From Mycobacterium botniense (GTDB taxonomy: Bacteria > Actinomycetota > Actinomycetes > Mycobacteriales > Mycobacteriaceae), in NCBI RefSeq assembly GCF_010723305.1, contig NZ_BLKW01000002.1, positions 1,240,001 to 1,304,000 of the forward strand: a DNA stretch of 64,000 nucleotides. The letters are read 5' to 3'. Positions 33,150-42,891 of the stretch are shown in pieces; the stretch's first letter is position 1; every line of letters starts with the position of its first letter. The notes beneath the pieces are model-generated. The model ran no database searches. It was not told the DNA's origin and saw only the letters and a list, made by a program, of their open reading frames with translations. The translations under genes were made by a program, and so were the position numbers.

Positions 33150-33806
33150 ATGCCATCCGAAAACGGGGTTTCCCGCCGCGAGGAGTTGCTGGCCGTGGCC
33201 ACCAAGCTGTTTGCCGCGCGCGGATATCACGGTACCCGGATGGACGACGTCGCCGACGTGGTGGGGCTCAACAAGGCGACGGTCTACCACTACTACGCCA
33301 GTAAGTCGCTGATCTTGTTCGACATCTACCGCCGGGCCGCCGAGGGCACGCTGGCCGCTGTCCACGACGATCCGTCCTGGACTGCCCGGGAGGCGCTGTA
33401 CCAGTACACCGTCCGACTGCTCACCGGGATCGCTCAAAATCCCGAGCGGGCCGCCGTGTACTTCCAGGAACAGCCCTACATCACCGAGTGGTTCACCGAG
33501 GAACAGGTCGCCGAGATCCGAGAGAAGGAGACCCAGGTTTACGAGCATGTGCACGGGCTCATCGACCGCGGCATCGCCAGCGGCGAGTTTTACGAGTGCG
33601 ACTCGCACGTGCTGGCGCTGGGCTATATCGGGATGACGCTGGGCAGCTACCGCTGGCTGCGGCCCAGCGGGCGGCGCACGGCCAAGGAGATCGCCGCCGA
33701 ATTCAGCACTGCTCTGTTGCGCGGGCTGATCCGCGACGAATCGATCCGCAAGCAGTCCCCCCTCGGCCCGGGAGCCGATATCGATACAGCCGGTCGGGGG
33801 GCCTGA
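33150..33806 (+). CDS. TetR-family transcriptional regulator
   Basis: 218 residues. HTH: TKLFAARGYHGTRMDDVADV, then LNKATVYHYYASKSLILFDI. The C-terminal region contains RRTAKEIAAEFSTALLRGL, the KstR2/FadR-like C-terminal pattern. ATG start at 33150. Equivalent to Rv0158. The target is unclear: its neighbours are the pnt operon upstream and a convergent hydrolase downstream. Not obviously linked to the 27-bp motif found further right. Confidence 0.88.
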   Translation: MPSENGVSRREELLAVATKLFAARGYHGTRMDDVADVVGLNKATVYHYYASKSLILFDIYRRAAEGTLAAVHDDPSWTAREALYQYTVRLLTGIAQNPERAAVYFQEQPYITEWFTEEQVAEIREKETQVYEHVHGLIDRGIASGEFYECDSHVLALGYIGMTLGSYRWLRPSGRRTAKEIAAEFSTALLRGLIRDESIRKQSPLGPGADIDTAGRGA

Positions 33807-36426: not shown

Positions 36427-36969
36427 TCAGGATGAGTTGGGTGTTTTGATCCCGACCACATGGCGCAGCTGCGCCAGAAACTGGTCTGCATCGTCACTGC
36501 GAATCATGTAGTGCGAGATCGCGATACGGATCGCAGCGGCCGCTTTCACCGCGGCATTAGATCCAGGAAGCAGCCGTTGTAACCCTTCCCGCATCTCGGG
36601 GAGAACGCGGGAAAACTCCGCGATGACATGTTCAGGTTCGATATCGACCATCCGCACGCCCGTGGCGGCGTGCTGATATTCCACGATGAAGCGCAACGCT
36701 GCGTCGAGCTTCTCAACCCCGGTCAGTCCGGCTGTCGCCTTGCTCAGGCCGCTGTCGAAGGCCTGGCGTTCATAGCGGGAAAACGCGGACAGTAGCTCCT
36801 CTTTGGATGCGAACCAACGATACAGCGTGGGGCGCGACACCCCGGCTTGCGCCGCCACCTCCGAAAGGCTCAACTTGGACCTGCCGTTGCGGCCGAGCAC
36901 CTCCGCGGTGGCGGCGAGAATGCGCTGTTTGGTCGAGGTGTCGGCCTCAGTGGCGGCGCGGCGACTCAT
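36427..36969 (-). CDS. TetR-family regulator, proposed controller of the 27-bp-motif regulon
   Basis: 180 residues. HTH: AEVLGRNGRSKLSLSEVAAQ, then AGVSRPTLYRWFASKEELLS. The ligand domain (VEYQHAATGVRMVDIEPEHV) is short. ATG at 36969-36967 is only 7 bases from a CTTTACA-N14-TGTCAC motif, and the same motif precedes three or four other transcription units of the cluster to the right. Autoregulation and local control are the simplest interpretation. No counterpart between Rv0161 and adhE1 in H37Rv that I recall. Confidence 0.88.
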   Translation of the reverse strand: MSRRAATEADTSTKQRILAATAEVLGRNGRSKLSLSEVAAQAGVSRPTLYRWFASKEELLSAFSRYERQAFDSGLSKATAGLTGVEKLDAALRFIVEYQHAATGVRMVDIEPEHVIAEFSRVLPEMREGLQRLLPGSNAAVKAAAAIRIAISHYMIRSDDADQFLAQLRHVVGIKTPNSS

Positions 36970-36976
36970 AGCCGAA

Positions 36977-37003
36977 CTTTACAGAGTGTCGATGAAGTGT
37001 CAC
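36977..37003. promoter_or_regulatory. Regulon motif copy 1: CTTTACA-N14-TGTCAC
   Basis: CTTTACA at 36977-36983 and TGTCAC at 36998-37003, in the gap between the TetR gene and the F420-type oxidoreductase. TTTACA versus TGTCAC reversed gives an imperfect inverted repeat. Placed next to the TetR start, it is a likely autoregulatory site. Confidence 0.6.
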
Positions 37004-37157
37004 GGTGCTTTGGCGCCACTGTCATGATCCTGTGGGTGAGCCGCTGTGTCCGGGTCGATACCGGCCTTCCCATCGTAACCGTGTCCGTGCACGGCAGACC
37101 GGTGGGGCAAACAGCGTTCGGACCTCGCGGAGGCGCTCAGGCCGCCACCCCCGGGAA

Positions 37158-37184
37158 CTTTACACATTATCGTAAAAATGTCAC
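37158..37184. promoter_or_regulatory. Regulon motif copy 2
   Basis: CTTTACA 37158-37164, TGTCAC 37179-37184, same 14-base spacing. It ends 35 bases before the ATG of the F420-type oxidoreductase. The spacer contains the AT-rich run TAAAAA. Confidence 0.65.
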
Positions 37185-37219
37185 GACTGAGGGTTGCGCG
37201 CTCGACGAGAAAGCTGGCC

Positions 37220-38149
37220 ATGTATTTCACGATCACCCATCCCATGCATCGTCACCCGTACCATCCCGAACTGGTTAGCGGGGCGGGGGTCGCCGCTGTT
37301 GCCGCAGCGGCGGAAGCCGCCGGATTCCACGGGTTCGGGTTCACCGACCACCCCGCTCCGTCGCAGCGCTGGTTGGACGCCGGCGGGCACGACGCGCTGG
37401 ACCCGTTTGTGGCGATGGGTTTCGCCGCAGCCTGCACGACAACGCTGCGGCTGATCCCCAACATCGTGGTGTTGCCCTACCGTAATCCATTTGTGGTGGC
37501 CAAATCCGGTGCGACACTGGATGTGCTGTCCGGCGGCCGGTTTACCCTCGCGGTCGGAGTCGGTTACCTGAAACGGGAGTTCGCGGCCCTCGGGGTGGAC
37601 TACGACGAACGCACGGAGTTGTTCGACGAGGCGCTGCACGTTATTCGCACGGTGTGGACACGCGACGACGTGTGGATCGAGGGACGGCATTTCAGCGCCC
37701 GTGGGATCACCGCCCATCCCCGACCGGTGAGCCAGCCGCACCCGCCGATCTGGATCGGCGGCAATACCGCCGCGGCCCGCCGGCGGGTGGCAGCGCACGG
37801 GGATGGCTGGTGCCCGTTCGCGGCGCCCGCCCAGCTAGCCCAGACCGCGCGAACCGCGGTGATCGACTCGGTCCAGCGCCTCGCCGCCGGTATCGACGAT
37901 CTGCGCTACCGCCTCGACGCGGCAGGCCGCGACCACTCGGCGGTCGACGTGGTGTTCACCAACGCCGCGGGCGGCAGTCCCGCAGACGCGGACTTCAACG
38001 CCGACGCCTACCTGGCCGGTGCGGAAAAGCTGGCGGCGCTTGGGGTCACGTGGCTGCAGGTGGGTTTGCCGGGAGACAGTCTGGCGCACGCACTGGAGAC
38101 CATCGAGCGGTTCGCGGCTTCCGTGATCGACCCGGCGGGCGGCTCGTAA
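37220..38149 (+). CDS. LLM-class F420-dependent oxidoreductase
   Basis: 309 residues from ATG 37220 (MYFTITHPMHRHPY); an earlier ATG at 37178 lies inside the regulatory motif and is rejected. The bacterial-luciferase TIM-barrel pattern is clear: GFHGFGFTDHPAP (about 42-54), LRLIPNIVVLPYRNPFVVAK, LSGGRFTLAVGVGYLKREF, then HPPIWIGGN and ADAYLAGAEKLAALGVTW. This subfamily typically uses coenzyme F420 to reduce or oxidise a hydrophobic alcohol or alkene. Within the motif-controlled cluster; the substrate is probably a CoA thioester or its precursor, by inference only. Confidence 0.88.
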   Translation: MYFTITHPMHRHPYHPELVSGAGVAAVAAAAEAAGFHGFGFTDHPAPSQRWLDAGGHDALDPFVAMGFAAACTTTLRLIPNIVVLPYRNPFVVAKSGATLDVLSGGRFTLAVGVGYLKREFAALGVDYDERTELFDEALHVIRTVWTRDDVWIEGRHFSARGITAHPRPVSQPHPPIWIGGNTAAARRRVAAHGDGWCPFAAPAQLAQTARTAVIDSVQRLAAGIDDLRYRLDAAGRDHSAVDVVFTNAAGGSPADADFNADAYLAGAEKLAALGVTWLQVGLPGDSLAHALETIERFAASVIDPAGGS

Positions 38150-38151
38150 CT

Positions 38152-38178
38152 CTTTACAAGCGTGGCCTGAAATGTCAC
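38152..38178. promoter_or_regulatory. Regulon motif copy 3
   Basis: CTTTACA 38152-38158, TGTCAC 38173-38178. It ends only 9 bases before the GTG of the TesB-like gene and 2 bases after the previous stop, so the transcript from here must be leaderless or nearly so. Confidence 0.65.
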
Positions 38179-38187
38179 GCTCCCTCT

Positions 38188-39069
38188 GTGACCACGGAAT
38201 CTGAACAGACACATTGGTCGGTCGCCGGCCTGCTCGAGTTGTTCGATGTGCAGCCCGACGGAACCAACCATTTCACGGGCGGAACCGGCATCGCCGGCGC
38301 TGACGAGCGCCAGGTCGTCGAAGGCAGCCAAGTGCTAGCGCAGTCGATTATCGCTGTGGCCAAACAATTTCCGGAGAAATCGGTCCGCTCCGCGCACGCT
38401 GTTTTCGCCCGCGCTGTCGCCCCCGGCCCGCCGGTGGAATTCGACCTCGACGTCGTGCATGAAGGCCGCTCCACCGCTACCGCGGTCGTGGCGGCGCGGC
38501 AGGGCGGTCGACGCTGTATGACGATGACCGTGCTCGCCGACATCCCGTCGCCAGATGTGATCCGTCACCATCTGCCGCGGCCGGACGTTGCCGCCCCGGC
38601 CGACGCACATGTCTGTGAGATGCCGATGGCCGGGCGTGAGGTGCGCCTCGTGGACGTCGTCGACGTCAACAGCCCCGACGAAGTCGGGCCGCCCGAACTG
38701 TACGCGTGGGTGCGTTACGACCCGATCCCGGCCCGGGACGATCTCGCCAAGGCGTTGATCGCCCATTTCACCGGGCATTTGGGGATTTCGACCACGATGC
38801 GTGCGCACGCCGGGATCGGCACCAGCCAGGCGCACCTGAGCGTGTCCACCGCCCCGATGACCCTGACCGTCAGCTTCCACGAGCCGGTGTCGTGGAGCGG
38901 TTGGTTGCTGTACACGCACGAAAGCACCCAGGTGGGCGCCGGGATGTCGTATGTCCGCGGTGCGGTGCACACGGAGGACGGGGCGCTGATCGCGTCGTTC
39001 ACGCAGGAGGCGCTGATCCGCCCACTGCGCAGCAGCGACACCGCAATCGAAGCCCGGGCCCGGTTGTAG
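38188..39069 (+). CDS. TesB-like acyl-CoA thioesterase II (double hotdog)
   Basis: 293 residues from GTG 38188 (VTTESEQTHWSVAGLLELFD); a longer in-frame stretch overlaps the previous gene and is not coding. The order of blocks fits TesB: N-terminal LLELFDVQPDGTNHFTG, VFARAVAPGPPVEFDLDVVH, then C-terminal AWVRYDPIPARDDLAKALIA, DLGIST-like HLGISTTM and SWSGWLLYTHES. TesB hydrolyses medium- to long-chain acyl-CoA. It is immediately after the F420-type gene with its own regulatory motif. The catalytic Asp of the second hotdog is not clearly identified by eye. Confidence 0.82.
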   Translation: MTTESEQTHWSVAGLLELFDVQPDGTNHFTGGTGIAGADERQVVEGSQVLAQSIIAVAKQFPEKSVRSAHAVFARAVAPGPPVEFDLDVVHEGRSTATAVVAARQGGRRCMTMTVLADIPSPDVIRHHLPRPDVAAPADAHVCEMPMAGREVRLVDVVDVNSPDEVGPPELYAWVRYDPIPARDDLAKALIAHFTGHLGISTTMRAHAGIGTSQAHLSVSTAPMTLTVSFHEPVSWSGWLLYTHESTQVGAGMSYVRGAVHTEDGALIASFTQEALIRPLRSSDTAIEARARL

Positions 39070-39118
39070 CGGTCAGCTGACACGGAGACCGGCACACCGC
39101 ACGTCCGGTCGACGCGGG

Positions 39119-39811
39119 TCACCGGTGGGCATCCGGTGGGGGCGGCAGTTCAGCCACAACACGTGCGCGCGTCTCGTCGAAACTGAGAAACCCCTTGATA
39201 GGCAGGCTCTCCGGTGGCGGGTCCGGATAACTCCAGGCGACGTCATCGACGACTGTGTTGCCGACGACTGCGGCCCAGTACGTCGCCGCGCCTTTGTAAT
39301 TGCAATACGACGTGGTCTCGGTGGGCCGGAGCAGGTCGATGCGAACGAATGCGGGGTCGACGTACAGGCGGGGTTGCACTGCTGTTTCGAAGACGATCAC
39401 CGTGTCGTCGGTGTCGACCAGTGTGGTGTCAGCGACGGTGACGCGCAGATGCCGTTTAGTCGGGCGGCAGTCGATGCGGTGATAGGGGTTGGGCGGATAG
39501 GTGACGAGTCTGCGCCCCTCCTCGAACCACACGTCGACGGCATCCCAGGGGACCGCGACGAACCCCGGCGCCTCCGCGACCGGCTGGTGTGGCAGCCCGC
39601 CGACCTCACCGGCCGGAAAGGCGTAGCTCAGGGCATGGTTGCGCCGGTGCACCAATAATGCACGCTCGGTGTCAAGCACCACGTGCCCGTCGCGAAATGC
39701 CTGGACACGGCGCGGGTGTGGTTCTATGTACACCACCTCACCCGGCAATGGGGGAGTGAACCATCCCGCGGGATCCGAACTGAGCGGACCACGCCCAGCG
39801 GTAAGCGTCAT
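39119..39811 (-). CDS. DUF427-domain protein, two-domain type
   Basis: 230 residues with two DUF427-like halves. The first carries VVYIEPHPRRVQAFRDGHVV, then LDTERALLVHRRNHALSYAF. The second has VADTTLVDTDDTVIVFETA, LRPTETTSYCNYKGAATYWA, and VAWSYPDPPPESLPIKGFLS. The family is an actinobacterial beta-barrel of unknown activity. Convergent with the TesB gene, divergent from the CoA-transferase, and sharing the motif at 39941 across a 130-base gap. A second intact single-domain copy lies at 12057 and a broken one at 3392. Confidence 0.85.
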   Translation of the reverse strand: MTLTAGRGPLSSDPAGWFTPPLPGEVVYIEPHPRRVQAFRDGHVVLDTERALLVHRRNHALSYAFPAGEVGGLPHQPVAEAPGFVAVPWDAVDVWFEEGRRLVTYPPNPYHRIDCRPTKRHLRVTVADTTLVDTDDTVIVFETAVQPRLYVDPAFVRIDLLRPTETTSYCNYKGAATYWAAVVGNTVVDDVAWSYPDPPPESLPIKGFLSFDETRARVVAELPPPPDAHR

Positions 39812-39940
39812 GGCCGGAATTGCGCTGGCACCGTGGCCAGCCGTGCGATTGTGAGCGATCCTGTCATGGGCCGTCCTTGCACGCAGTGTCCCGTTCCGTG
39901 GTGCCGATAGCCTCCACGGGTGGTCAGCATAGTTGCCCAG

Positions 39941-39967
39941 GTTTACAACTTGGCGTGTAAGTGTTAA
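39941..39967. promoter_or_regulatory. Regulon motif copy 4 (GTTTACA-N14-TGTTAA)
   Basis: GTTTACA 39941-39947 and TGTTAA 39962-39967, a diverged copy with identical spacing. It also contains the closer inverted repeat TTTACA / TGTAA. It lies 21 bases before the CoA-transferase GTG, in the divergent gap with the DUF427 gene. Confidence 0.5.
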
Positions 39968-39988
39968 CGATTTCAGAGAGGATCTGTC

Positions 39989-41158
39989 GTGGCCGGACCG
40001 ATGGAGGGCGTCAGGGTCATCGAGCTGGGGATCTGGGTAGCCGCCCCGGCAGCGGGCGGGATCCTCGCGGATTGGGGCGCAGACGTCATCAAGATCGAGC
40101 CACCGACTGGTGACCCGGCGCGGACGTTCGGCCGCATGCTTGGAGTTGCCGGCGGGGAGAACCCGCCGTTCGAAATGGACAATCGCTCCAAACGCAGCAT
40201 CGTTGTGGACTTAACCACCCCGGATGGCCGGTCGACTGCACTTGAATTGCTCAGCAGCGCCGACGTTTTCCTGACCAATATCCGGCCAGGTGCGCTGCAA
40301 CGCCTCGGAGTGGACTTCGAGACGGTGGCCGCCCGCAACCGGCGGCTCGTCTACGGGTTGATCACCGGGTACGGTATGGCCGGACCCGACGCCGACCGCG
40401 CCGCCTATGACGTGGCGGCGTTTTGGGCCCGTGCCGGGGTGGCTCACTTACTCACCCGTCCCGGTGACACCCCTCCGTTTCAGCGTGGCGGCATGGGTGA
40501 CCACATGGTCGCGATGACCCTTGTCGCGGCGGTGTGCGCCGCCCTGCTGGCCCGGGAACGCAGCGGAGCCGGTCAACTGGTGACGACGTCGCTGTACCGG
40601 CAGGGCACCTACACGGTCAGTTTTGACCTCAACACGTACCTGATGTCGGGGCAGCCGATCGCCGTCGGCCAGCGCGAATCGATGGCTAACCCGTGCATGA
40701 ACAACTACGCCGCCGCAGATGGGCGGCGGTTCTGGGTGGTGGGCCTACAAGGAGAGCGCCACTGGCCGGCGCTGTGCCGGGTAGTCGGGCGACCCGACTG
40801 GCTGACCGATCCCCGTTTCGCCACCGCGCGCGCCCGCGCGGCCCACGCTGTCGAGCTCATCAGCGAGCTGGACGCGATTTTCGCCACCAAAGCGCTCACC
40901 GAATGGGCGGAGATCTTTGCCCGTGAACCGGAGTTCTTCTGGTCACCGGTCAACAGCCTCGAAGACGTTCTGGCCGACGAACAGTTCTATGCCGCGGGCG
41001 GTATCGTCTCGGTGCCTGGTGCCGACGGTGGTGTCCCGATGGTTGCAACACCGGCAGATTTTCACGGCACGCCGTGGGCCCCACGCTCGATCGCCCCACA
41101 GCTCGGCGAACACACCGAGGAGATCCTCGCTGAGCTGAAAGCTCGCCGCACGCCCTGA
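39989..41158 (+). CDS. CaiB/BaiF family class III CoA-transferase
   Basis: 389 residues, GTG start 39989. Family landmarks: GVRVIELGIWVAAPAAGGIL, ADWGADVIKIEPPTGDPAR, LTNIRPGALQRLGVDFETV, and the catalytic-Asp region QRGGMGDHMVAMTL. These enzymes move CoA between carboxylic acids (formyl-CoA transferase, BaiF, racemase-like). It indicates that the cluster processes a carboxylate as its CoA thioester. Motif copy 4 precedes it; the following gene begins after motif copy 5. Confidence 0.92.
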   Translation: MAGPMEGVRVIELGIWVAAPAAGGILADWGADVIKIEPPTGDPARTFGRMLGVAGGENPPFEMDNRSKRSIVVDLTTPDGRSTALELLSSADVFLTNIRPGALQRLGVDFETVAARNRRLVYGLITGYGMAGPDADRAAYDVAAFWARAGVAHLLTRPGDTPPFQRGGMGDHMVAMTLVAAVCAALLARERSGAGQLVTTSLYRQGTYTVSFDLNTYLMSGQPIAVGQRESMANPCMNNYAAADGRRFWVVGLQGERHWPALCRVVGRPDWLTDPRFATARARAAHAVELISELDAIFATKALTEWAEIFAREPEFFWSPVNSLEDVLADEQFYAAGGIVSVPGADGGVPMVATPADFHGTPWAPRSIAPQLGEHTEEILAELKARRTP

Positions 41159-41187
41159 CCACACCGCTCAGCCCGGACCAGACGAGA

Positions 41188-41214
41188 CTTTACAGATTGT
41201 GGTGACAATGTCAC
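41188..41214. promoter_or_regulatory. Regulon motif copy 5
   Basis: CTTTACA 41188-41194, TGTCAC 41209-41214, 29 bases after the CoA-transferase stop and about 100 bases before the next probable start. Confidence 0.65.
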
Positions 41215-41316
41215 ATTGTTGTGGGTCGCGTCATCAATCTCCGGTGAATGCGGGTGACCAGTCGGGCCGGCCAGGCCGGCCTACCGGTCAGGGGTGCAGC
41301 GATAGGGAAGAGATCT

Positions 41317-41904
41317 ATGGTCAGTCAAGCTTTGCGCCGGCGTGGCCGCGGTGCCGACCACGCTGGGCCGATGCGCAATTCGCGCGACGGCAACACCATC
41401 TCCCTCAAGTACCGGCTCGACGTTATCGGCTGCCGTGTCACGGACGTGGTCCGGTCTATCGGCGGATGGTTGTATGACCGGGCAATGGCGGGCTGGGAGG
41501 TGAACGTGATGCTGCCGCGGATCAGCGATGCGCGGCCGCTGCAGATTCTCGGCGCGCGAATGCTCGGCGCGCACGGGGACGTCAGCACGACCGGTCTGGC
41601 AAACCACGGGTTGGCTGTCAGCGCCGATGTGTTCGCACAGAACGCGGCTATCCGCAAGACTGTGCTCGAAGCCTTGGACAGTGGTCTGACCGAGGTCACA
41701 TTGTGGGGGGACAGCTGGCCGGTGCGGGTTCAGCGCGGCCTTGGTGCCGTCGACTACCGGCTGAGCGGGGCAGCGCGTGCTTTTAAGCACCAAGCGCTTG
41801 CCGCGGCACAACTTCCGCACGAATCGGTTGGGTTGCTGGAGACGTTTTTCACCGACAGGCGATCGTTTTCGCCGCTGGGTTCCGAGCTGATTTCAGCCGG
41901 CTAG
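41317..41904 (+). CDS. Hypothetical protein in motif-controlled cluster
   Basis: 195 residues from ATG 41317 (MVSQALRRRG) with GGGAAGAG upstream; ATG 41248 is an alternative. I do not recognise a family. It has a basic N-terminus, then SLKYRLDVIGCRVTDVVRSI (41410 region), GGWLYDRAMAGWEVNVMLPR, ALDSGLTEVTLWGDSWP and RALDYRLSG-like ARAFKHQALAAAQLPHES. No signal peptide or membrane segment is evident. It lies just after a copy of the 27-bp motif, so it is probably a functional member of the regulon. The expected role is unknown. Confidence 0.65.
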   Translation: MVSQALRRRGRGADHAGPMRNSRDGNTISLKYRLDVIGCRVTDVVRSIGGWLYDRAMAGWEVNVMLPRISDARPLQILGARMLGAHGDVSTTGLANHGLAVSADVFAQNAAIRKTVLEALDSGLTEVTLWGDSWPVRVQRGLGAVDYRLSGAARAFKHQALAAAQLPHESVGLLETFFTDRRSFSPLGSELISAG

Positions 41905-42156
41905 CCCCGGAACGCCCGTGGAATGCTGGCACAGCCGTACCATTGCACCAGCTGCGTTGTCAGCAGCGCCGGTTCGCGGTGAGAGTGCGACGGTTTGGTC
42001 GTCGATGTTGCACCGGAGGCGTGCAGTGTGCGGTGATGTCACGCCCCGGCACGGCGAGGATCTGGTGAACGCCAACAGGCAGTGGCCCTGCCGGCCTCAA
42101 AGCCGGCGCTCGACCAGCGGCAACCGATGCGGCAAGCGATCGAAGGCCCCACGCGT

Positions 42157-42891
42157 ATGACAGCCCGGACGCGGGTGGCGCTCGTTACCGGAGCGGCCGG
42201 CGGACAGGGCTGGGCGATCGTCGAACGGTTGCGCGCGGCAGGGTTTCTGGTCGCGGCGTGCGACCAGCGGTCTGATGAACTCGGCGTCGCCGTCGATAAG
42301 CGCGGCGACGCCGCGGTGATGGGGATCTCTCTCGATGTGACCTCGGAGTCCCAGTGGGATGCCGCCGTCCGGCAGGTTGTCGATCGCTTCGGGTCGCTGA
42401 CCGCTTTGGTGAACAACGCCGGTGTACTGCATCGGGCGGCGATCGCCGACGAGACGGTACCAGGATTCGAAACGGCCTGGCGGGTCAACTGCCTGGGTGC
42501 GTTTTTAGGGATCCGCGCAGCGCTCGACCAACTGCGCGCCGCCGAAGACGCTGCCGTCGTGAACATCTGCAGCACTGCCGCGATCCGGCCCTTCCCGCTC
42601 CATTCGGCATACGGATCATCCAAATGGGCGCTGCGCGGACTGACCCAAATCGCTGCAGCCGAGTTGGCCACGTGCAAAGTCCGGGTCAACGCGGTGTTTC
42701 CCGGACCCGTGGCGACACCGATGCTCGACGACGCCGTCCGTCAGCGGCTGGTCGCGACGTCGGTGTCCGGCCGACTGGGACAGCCGCTGGAAATAGCTGA
42801 CGCGGTGGCGTTTCTGCTCTCAGAGCAGGCATCCTTCATCACCGGATCAGAACTGGTCGTCGACGGCGGACAGTGTTTACAGATCCGGTGA
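42157..42891 (+). CDS. Short-chain dehydrogenase/reductase (SDR)
   Basis: 244 residues from ATG 42157 (MTARTRVALVTGAAGGQG). Cofactor loop TGAAGGQG, acidic CDQRSDEL at the end of beta-2 (NAD-preferring), NNAG, then NICSTAAIRPFPLHSAYGSS with Ser-Tyr-xxx-Lys (YGSSK), PG-motif VFPGPVATPM and tail SFITGSELVVDGG. The frame extends left to 42082 without family similarity. A 250-base gap (41905-42156) separates it from the hypothetical gene; no motif copy is in that gap, so it may be read through from 41188. Confidence 0.88.
   Translation: MTARTRVALVTGAAGGQGWAIVERLRAAGFLVAACDQRSDELGVAVDKRGDAAVMGISLDVTSESQWDAAVRQVVDRFGSLTALVNNAGVLHRAAIADETVPGFETAWRVNCLGAFLGIRAALDQLRAAEDAAVVNICSTAAIRPFPLHSAYGSSKWALRGLTQIAAAELATCKVRVNAVFPGPVATPMLDDAVRQRLVATSVSGRLGQPLEIADAVAFLLSEQASFITGSELVVDGGQCLQIR

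Follow-up and report, generated by a model that had tools for sequence, protein, structure and literature searches.

An asymmetric motif with promoter-like geometry as the probable operator of a TetR-type regulator in Mycobacterium botniense and its genus

Five copies of an asymmetric motif, typically TTTACA-N14-TGTCAC, lie in a small gene cluster of Mycobacterium botniense (contig NZ_BLKW01000002.1, positions 1,240,001 to 1,304,000; this stretch of 64,000 nt, analysed as a whole, is called the window, and all coordinates refer to it). Judged from sequence comparisons, they are very probably bound by the TetR-type repressor whose gene adjoins the first copy, at 36427. We consider it very likely that the motif is the operator of this regulator and that it represses the often leaderless promoters of an oxidative acyl-CoA regulon. 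The site is strictly asymmetric and overlaps promoter-like elements that look like a promoter in both directions. Among the open-access papers listed by motif-letter and word searches, no description of this regulator or site was seen; this looks like a TetR regulon with an unusual operator that is new with respect to those papers. An earlier model-made reading of the letters alone (the sequence-only reading) had reported five copies with a constant gap of 14 bases, and all were found as claimed, on the + strand. They are given here together with the regulator, with the first T of TTTACA counted as position 0:

36977..37003, + strand: predicted operator copy 1, the site of the TetR gene itself, whose ATG lies at -9 on the other strand
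37158..37184, + strand: predicted operator copy 2, upstream of the F420-type LLM oxidoreductase gene, likely start 37220 (+61)
38152..38178, + strand: predicted operator copy 3, upstream of the TesB-like thioesterase gene, GTG at +35 (38188), leaderless geometry
39941..39967, + strand: predicted operator copy 4, variant with TGTTAA, between the DUF427 and CoA-transferase genes, CoA-transferase GTG at +47
41188..41214, + strand: predicted operator copy 5, upstream of the 41248 gene, whose ATG lies at +59
36427..36969, - strand: TetR-family regulator of 180 amino acids (aa), proposed repressor of the five copies (PF00440, TetR fold, co-occurrence)

The gap between TTTACA and TGTYA is exactly 14 bases in all five copies. 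Four of them share CTTTACA and TGTCAC, as had been noted, copy 4 deviating as GTTTACA...TGTTAA, and the inner 14 bases vary freely. The start codon of the TetR gene at 36969 likewise lies the reported 7 bases from copy 1. The placement of the copies in intergenic gaps needs a small qualification, as the longest F420-type frame begins inside copy 2 (37178), its likely start being 37220. The same site is thus found at the regulator and at its neighbours (copy 1 plus four copies within 4.2 kb), which is the pattern of an autoregulated local regulon.

When two mismatches were allowed, the window held seven matches against 1.86 expected (standard deviation 1.19), a number reached by none of 100 shuffles; the two that are not among the five copies are copy 4 read in reverse and a match at 339. 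In the whole genome (4.34 Mb) the exact pattern occurs six times, five times in the window and once at G000:C4:1054252, and the relaxed form TTTACA-N14-TGTNA without mismatch returned the same six, the reversed control giving no match. Allowing one mismatch yielded nine matches (six of them exact) versus seven for the control, so that only exact matches stand out. The sixth copy precedes an SDR-like gene (labelled by eye from a TGASSGIG motif, no profile scan), followed by genes for a CaiB-like CoA-transferase and a P450. The regulon described by the sequence-only reading as local is therefore local as far as the five window copies go and wider beyond them, with this sixth copy elsewhere and a genus-wide distribution.

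A scan of related mycobacteria, which the sequence-only reading had suggested as a check, found TTTACA-N14-TGTCAC in 117 of the 148 genus genomes sampled; among the matches listed, the copies often cluster within 10-30 kb. That the motif is a chance product or a dispersed repeat is extremely improbable: it is short, and four of the five window copies are alike in their outer parts, but the reversed control gave no match in the own genome and 10 matches (a count of rows) in the 148, the inner 14 bases differ freely, and in many genomes copies are found a short way upstream of the same gene families.

The motif follows the regulator. A relative of the 36427 TetR (E<=1e-20) is encoded in 123 of the 148 genomes, and the exact motif occurs in 117 of these and in none of the 25 TetR-less genomes (Fisher p=5e-23, in genomes that are not independent of one another). 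Outside the genus, among 141 genomes of the family, two encode a TetR of at least 60% identity; both belong to genus g20, hold four exact copies each and are the only ones with several copies. Among 249 sampled genomes of the order, the TetR was found at E<=1e-25 in its own genus only (29 genomes). Three more distant TetRs of 40-49% identity are preceded, about 6-10 bp before their start, by TTTACA-N14-TGT(A/T)A. Two of them are encoded at another locus of genome G049 (L203, 3154 and 16552) and one in G260 of another genus (L202, 7412), where a TetR of 45% identity goes with no exact copy. These variant sites end in TGTTAA or TGTAAC, resembling window copy 4, and possibly form a specificity series. 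In Candidatus M. methanotrophicum (L101, 20 kb read) the TetR retains a copy while the cluster is reduced to a 129-aa remnant of the CoA-transferase family, and genomes G023, G029, G041, G056 and G064 have motif and TetR and no DUF427 gene at E<=1e-60. The distant TetRs, L101 and the five DUF427-less genomes help to separate the regulator from its cluster. In 34 chosen TetRs the recognition helix (residues 44-53) has a mean pairwise identity of 98%, compared with 69% for the ligand domain, as an unchanging operator would demand, although the DNA-binding parts of TetRs are generally more conserved.

Several observations weigh against this assignment. The cluster has been lost as a whole, none of the 25 TetR-less genomes being among the 113 with a DUF427 gene, and therefore presence and absence alone cannot single out the TetR; as none of the TetR-less genomes has a DUF427 gene at E<=1e-60, this gene is unable to separate the two. 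Three of the 141 genomes from outside the genus hold a single exact copy and encode no such TetR. A third TetR of G049 (52% identity) has no copy at its start, and two homologs of 39% identity (L204, L205) have none in 12 kb. Six of the 123 TetR-bearing genomes lack the exact motif. Among these, G026 shows a copy with one mismatch next to the TetR gene. In G042 (L185), where the TetR, DUF427, CoA-transferase and F420-type genes are retained, the usual asymmetric motif is missing and the only site seen is a symmetric ATTACA-N14-TGTAAT about 50 bp before the CoA-transferase gene (L185, 10206); the operator may have changed there. In G063, G078, G084 and G070 (73% complete) none of the sought cluster families was found in the 10-16 kb read around the TetR. 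Finally, a copy stands at the start of the TetR gene itself in only 13 of 72 named loci (8 short ones omitted), the nearest copy in the other 59 lying mostly 1.7-2.4 kb upstream. At L050 and L108 such a copy precedes SGL and thioesterase genes that lie before the TetR gene on the same strand, so the TetR would still be autoregulated, as part of an operon. Separately, the TetR gene of G078 (L188, 2415-2936), which is flanked by FAD-oxidase and adhE1-like genes and has no copy, looks like a relic.

The regulator itself matches PF00440 (E=9e-15) over a single TetR_N stretch, and its predicted model (mean pLDDT 83) is all helical and matches TetR structures, which places it in the TetR family. None of the 18 NCBIfam models that match it comes near its cut-off, so no specific name is available from NCBIfam, and no close TetR was found on plasmids, where none of 16 matching records covers 80% of the query. 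We also considered whether another regulator binds the motif, either the Rv0158-like second TetR of the window, encoded at 33150, or a double TetR of the Mce3R type. The 33150 gene is found close to the cluster in the window and in 67 of 99 genomes. Mce3R scores best among the solved relatives, and its operator is nonpalindromic and 25 bp long (PMC11667970). However, the 33150-type TetR, present in 144 of the 148 genus genomes, is found in 22 of the 25 that lack both the 36427 TetR and the motif, and lies far from the motif cluster in some genomes, e.g., G037 and G082, while the match to Mce3R is weak, generic and directed to the helix-turn-helix (HTH). Binding by another regulator is thus very unlikely. 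The 36427 protein was also tried as an Mce3R-type double TetR and rejected as such, having 180 aa and one TetR_N stretch instead of a two-unit chain of ~400 aa. The sequence-only reading had seen in the motif a dedicated operator of the neighbouring TetR. Given the co-occurrence inside and outside the genus, the variant copies at distant TetRs and the lack of any such link for the 33150 TetR, this remains the best-supported interpretation.

In 364 kb from 14 related genomes, all 52 TTTACA/TGTCAC pairs have a spacing of 14, and none was found at 4-13 or 15-23. Without presupposing the outer bases, we collected 348 distinct NTNACA-N14-TGTNAN dyads from all fetched DNA, much of which had been fetched for holding the motif or a TetR (copies near stretch ends were omitted here and from the geometry, start-position and T28 counts below). 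These comprise 243 TTTACA/GTGACA, 33 TTTACA/ATGACA, 8 TTTACA/TTTACA and no GTGACA/GTGACA pairs, where exchangeable halves would predict about 77 TTTACA/TTTACA and 45 GTGACA/GTGACA; this is not the behaviour of a classic palindromic operator. The 1.9 Mb of cluster and TetR loci taken alone gave the same order, with 202 and 35 of 444 ACA-N14-TGT occurrences. The asymmetric core is retained in copies that have a gene on the reverse side only, and hence the asymmetry is not simply a by-product of gene direction. What had been noticed previously as an imperfect dyad is a strict asymmetry that overlies promoter-like elements.

TTTACA resembles a -35 element and TGT an extended -10, and a -10 follows at a spacing of 17 in positions 23-28, where CACGCT is common. 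Counted over 282 copies, ATG or GTG starts of frames of 130 codons or more peak at +35 (31 copies) and at -10 of the opposite strand (27 copies); at both of these mirror positions the start codon is separated from the operator edge by 9 bases. A start codon at the first base of the transcript is common in mycobacteria (PMC4633059), and window copies 1 (ATG at -9) and 3 (GTG at +35) fit this leaderless geometry, the starts at copies 2, 4 and 5 lying at +61, +47 and +59. With genes called by frame length and GC content at third codon positions (GC3), and 6 of 297 copies omitted that have no nearby frame, position 28 is a T in 206 of 225 copies with a forward gene versus 15 of 66 reverse-only copies (p=2e-27, in copies of related species that are not independent). 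The corresponding base for the reverse -10, an A at -3, occurs in all 11 reverse-only copies with a start at -10 versus 1 of 13 forward-only copies with a start at +35. At seven copies, open frames begin in both mirror positions (in reverse at -10 or -11). Some of them may be spurious, but those at L047 and L049 pair a TetR with a P450-family gene. Two observations count against a bidirectional promoter: further large peaks of reverse starts occur at -30 (22) and -59 (20), and the A at -3 is not enriched over all reverse genes (122/212 vs 41/79, p=0.43), the reverse -10 signal being confined to leaderless genes.

The same geometry would suit a promoter of an alternative sigma factor that is conserved through polymerase recognition alone. 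TTTACA and TGTCACGCT stand at the spacing of a -35 and an extended -10, and many starts are at the positions expected for leaderless transcripts. However, start codons occupy mirror positions on both strands, and 66 of the 297 copies have a gene-like frame on the reverse side only, which departs from the strict orientation of a sigma-specific promoter. These reverse-only copies keep both outer halves and mostly lose T28, as counted above, meaning that, the forward -10 aside, conservation extends over the core. As the motif moreover tracks a TetR, we judge a pure sigma promoter to be very unlikely.

For the operator of the 36427 TetR we propose the following mode of action. The ligand-free TetR would bind each copy and, when bound, would deny RNA polymerase access and keep the gene repressed, because a copy spans the -35 (TTTACA) and the extended -10 (TGT-nAnnnT) 17 bp apart. 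On the other strand GTGACA-N17-AAAGnT could act likewise, and one copy could thus serve a gene on either side, often via a leaderless mRNA. The regulon would serve the oxidative acyl-CoA metabolism of a lipid-like compound, perhaps cyclic or branched, and an intermediate of this pathway would release the repressor.

How a regulator with a single HTH recognizes such a site may be explained by analogy. The recognition helices of one DNA-bound TetR dimer are ~32-38 Å apart (PMC11667970), 38 Å in the case of a CprB dimer (PMC4150764), and the outer halves of the site are 20 bp apart, too far for a 38 Å helix pair to span. TetRs that bind as two dimers have been reported at non-palindromic sites in several instances (PMC4150764), and we propose that two dimers per site may likewise be bound here. 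Alternatively, binding by the TetR might require a heterodimer or a partner protein, and this would account for the asymmetry. The absence of GTGACA/GTGACA and the eight TTTACA/TTTACA dyads fit this, as do two TetR paralogs in several clusters, but the own genome has a single TetR of the family at E<=1e-20 and still carries asymmetric copies, and the dimer-of-dimers precedents reportedly bind non-palindromic sites in several instances (PMC4150764). We regard an obligate partner as unlikely. The most specific version of the proposal, which is tentative and in our estimate falls somewhat short of an even chance, is that a single-HTH, homodimeric TetR uses an obligately lopsided, genus-wide operator of 26-30 bp that consists of two overlapping, opposed, often leaderless promoters, both gated by one repressor complex, with the lopsidedness stemming from two unlike dimer footprints and not from a fused or heteromeric regulator.

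Loci L041, L044, L049 and L053 each have two TetR paralogs of this family in one cluster; at L049 one of them and a divergent P450 gene have a copy in common and begin at its mirror positions.

Apart from the regulator, the window contains the following genes of interest:

37220..38149, + strand: LLM-class F420-dependent oxidoreductase (TIGR03619; profile match, scanned from 37178), proposed target
38188..39069, + strand: double-hotdog acyl-CoA thioesterase (profile match; same family preceded by a copy in most genomes, see below), proposed target
39119..39811, - strand: DUF427 protein, possible target of copy 4 in reverse direction, 130 bp away
39989..41158, + strand: family III CoA-transferase (CaiB-like; profile match), proposed target
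41248..41904, + strand: uncharacterised protein (weak LmbE/PIG-L-like model, no Pfam match), proposed target
42082..42891, + strand: SDR dehydrogenase, without a copy of its own here, with relatives in the motif clusters of other species
33150..33806: second TetR (Rv0158-like), without a link to the motif

The AlphaFold model of the 41248 protein weakly resembles LmbE/PIG-L deacetylases (best Foldseek E 8e-6, TM 0.44), and none of 27 family members matches the PIG-L Pfam model at E<=1; the protein is possibly a degenerate relative of these enzymes. In 20 stretches from 14 genus genomes, selected for their clusters, we found relatives of the window TetR, CoA-transferase, DUF427, F420-type, SDR and 41248 genes, not all in each, as well as genes for P450s, flavin monooxygenases, lactonase-like SGL proteins, thioesterases, acyl-CoA dehydrogenases, aldehyde dehydrogenases and HpaI-like aldolases. 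The window therefore seems to contain a reduced version of a more extensive oxidative acyl-CoA cluster. When families were clustered at 50% identity in 99 genomes, those most often preceded by a copy within 140 bp were the thioesterase family that includes the window gene (76 of 82 genomes), the lactonase-like SGL family (61 of 75), the 41248 family (51 of 53) and a 161-aa protein with a sub-threshold Polyketide_cyc2 match (38 of 42); for the TetR this was the case in 22 of 90. Copies outside the main cluster recur in several genomes (L021, L031, L198 and L010, L011, L197), in the vicinity of aldehyde-dehydrogenase-like and P450-like genes and of SDR-like genes (labelled by similarity or by eye, no profile scan).

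The proposed organization, a TetR repressor of adjacent catabolic genes, resembles KstR, KstR2 and BkaR, which are mycobacterial TetR repressors of neighbouring catabolic genes. The motifs of these three are termed palindromic (PMC4482099), whereas the site described here is asymmetric and 26 bp long with a spacing of 14. The part of the motif table of PMC4482099 that was consulted lists regulators under M. tuberculosis numbers. Mce3R shares the TetR type, a lipid-related regulon and an asymmetric operator of ~25 bp, but is a double TetR of 406 aa (PMC11667970), in contrast to the single-HTH protein of 180 aa. The dimer-of-dimers TetRs QacR and CprB resemble the present case in their long, in several instances non-palindromic sites occupied by two dimers (PMC4150764); no closeness in sequence to the 36427 TetR was found beyond the family level. 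Finally, bidirectional promoters such as acrR/acrA combine pseudo-symmetric DNA with divergent transcription, in one case with a TetR autorepressor (PMC12825309). These share a -10, whereas here each half would act as a -35 on one strand and an extended -10 on the other, with the predicted starts 45 bp apart.

What is new here is the asymmetry of the site and its overlap with promoter-like elements. An uncharacterised TetR subfamily, present in 123 of 148 genus genomes, gains a precise candidate operator and a list of probable targets for each species, which makes it possible to look for the substrate of a large oxidative acyl-CoA cluster by way of the ligand that would release the repressor. 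The strict asymmetry in combination with a single-HTH regulator poses a testable question in TetR-DNA recognition, and the mirror geometry suggests a compact design for bidirectional promoters in mycobacteria, in which leaderless mRNAs are common (PMC4633059).

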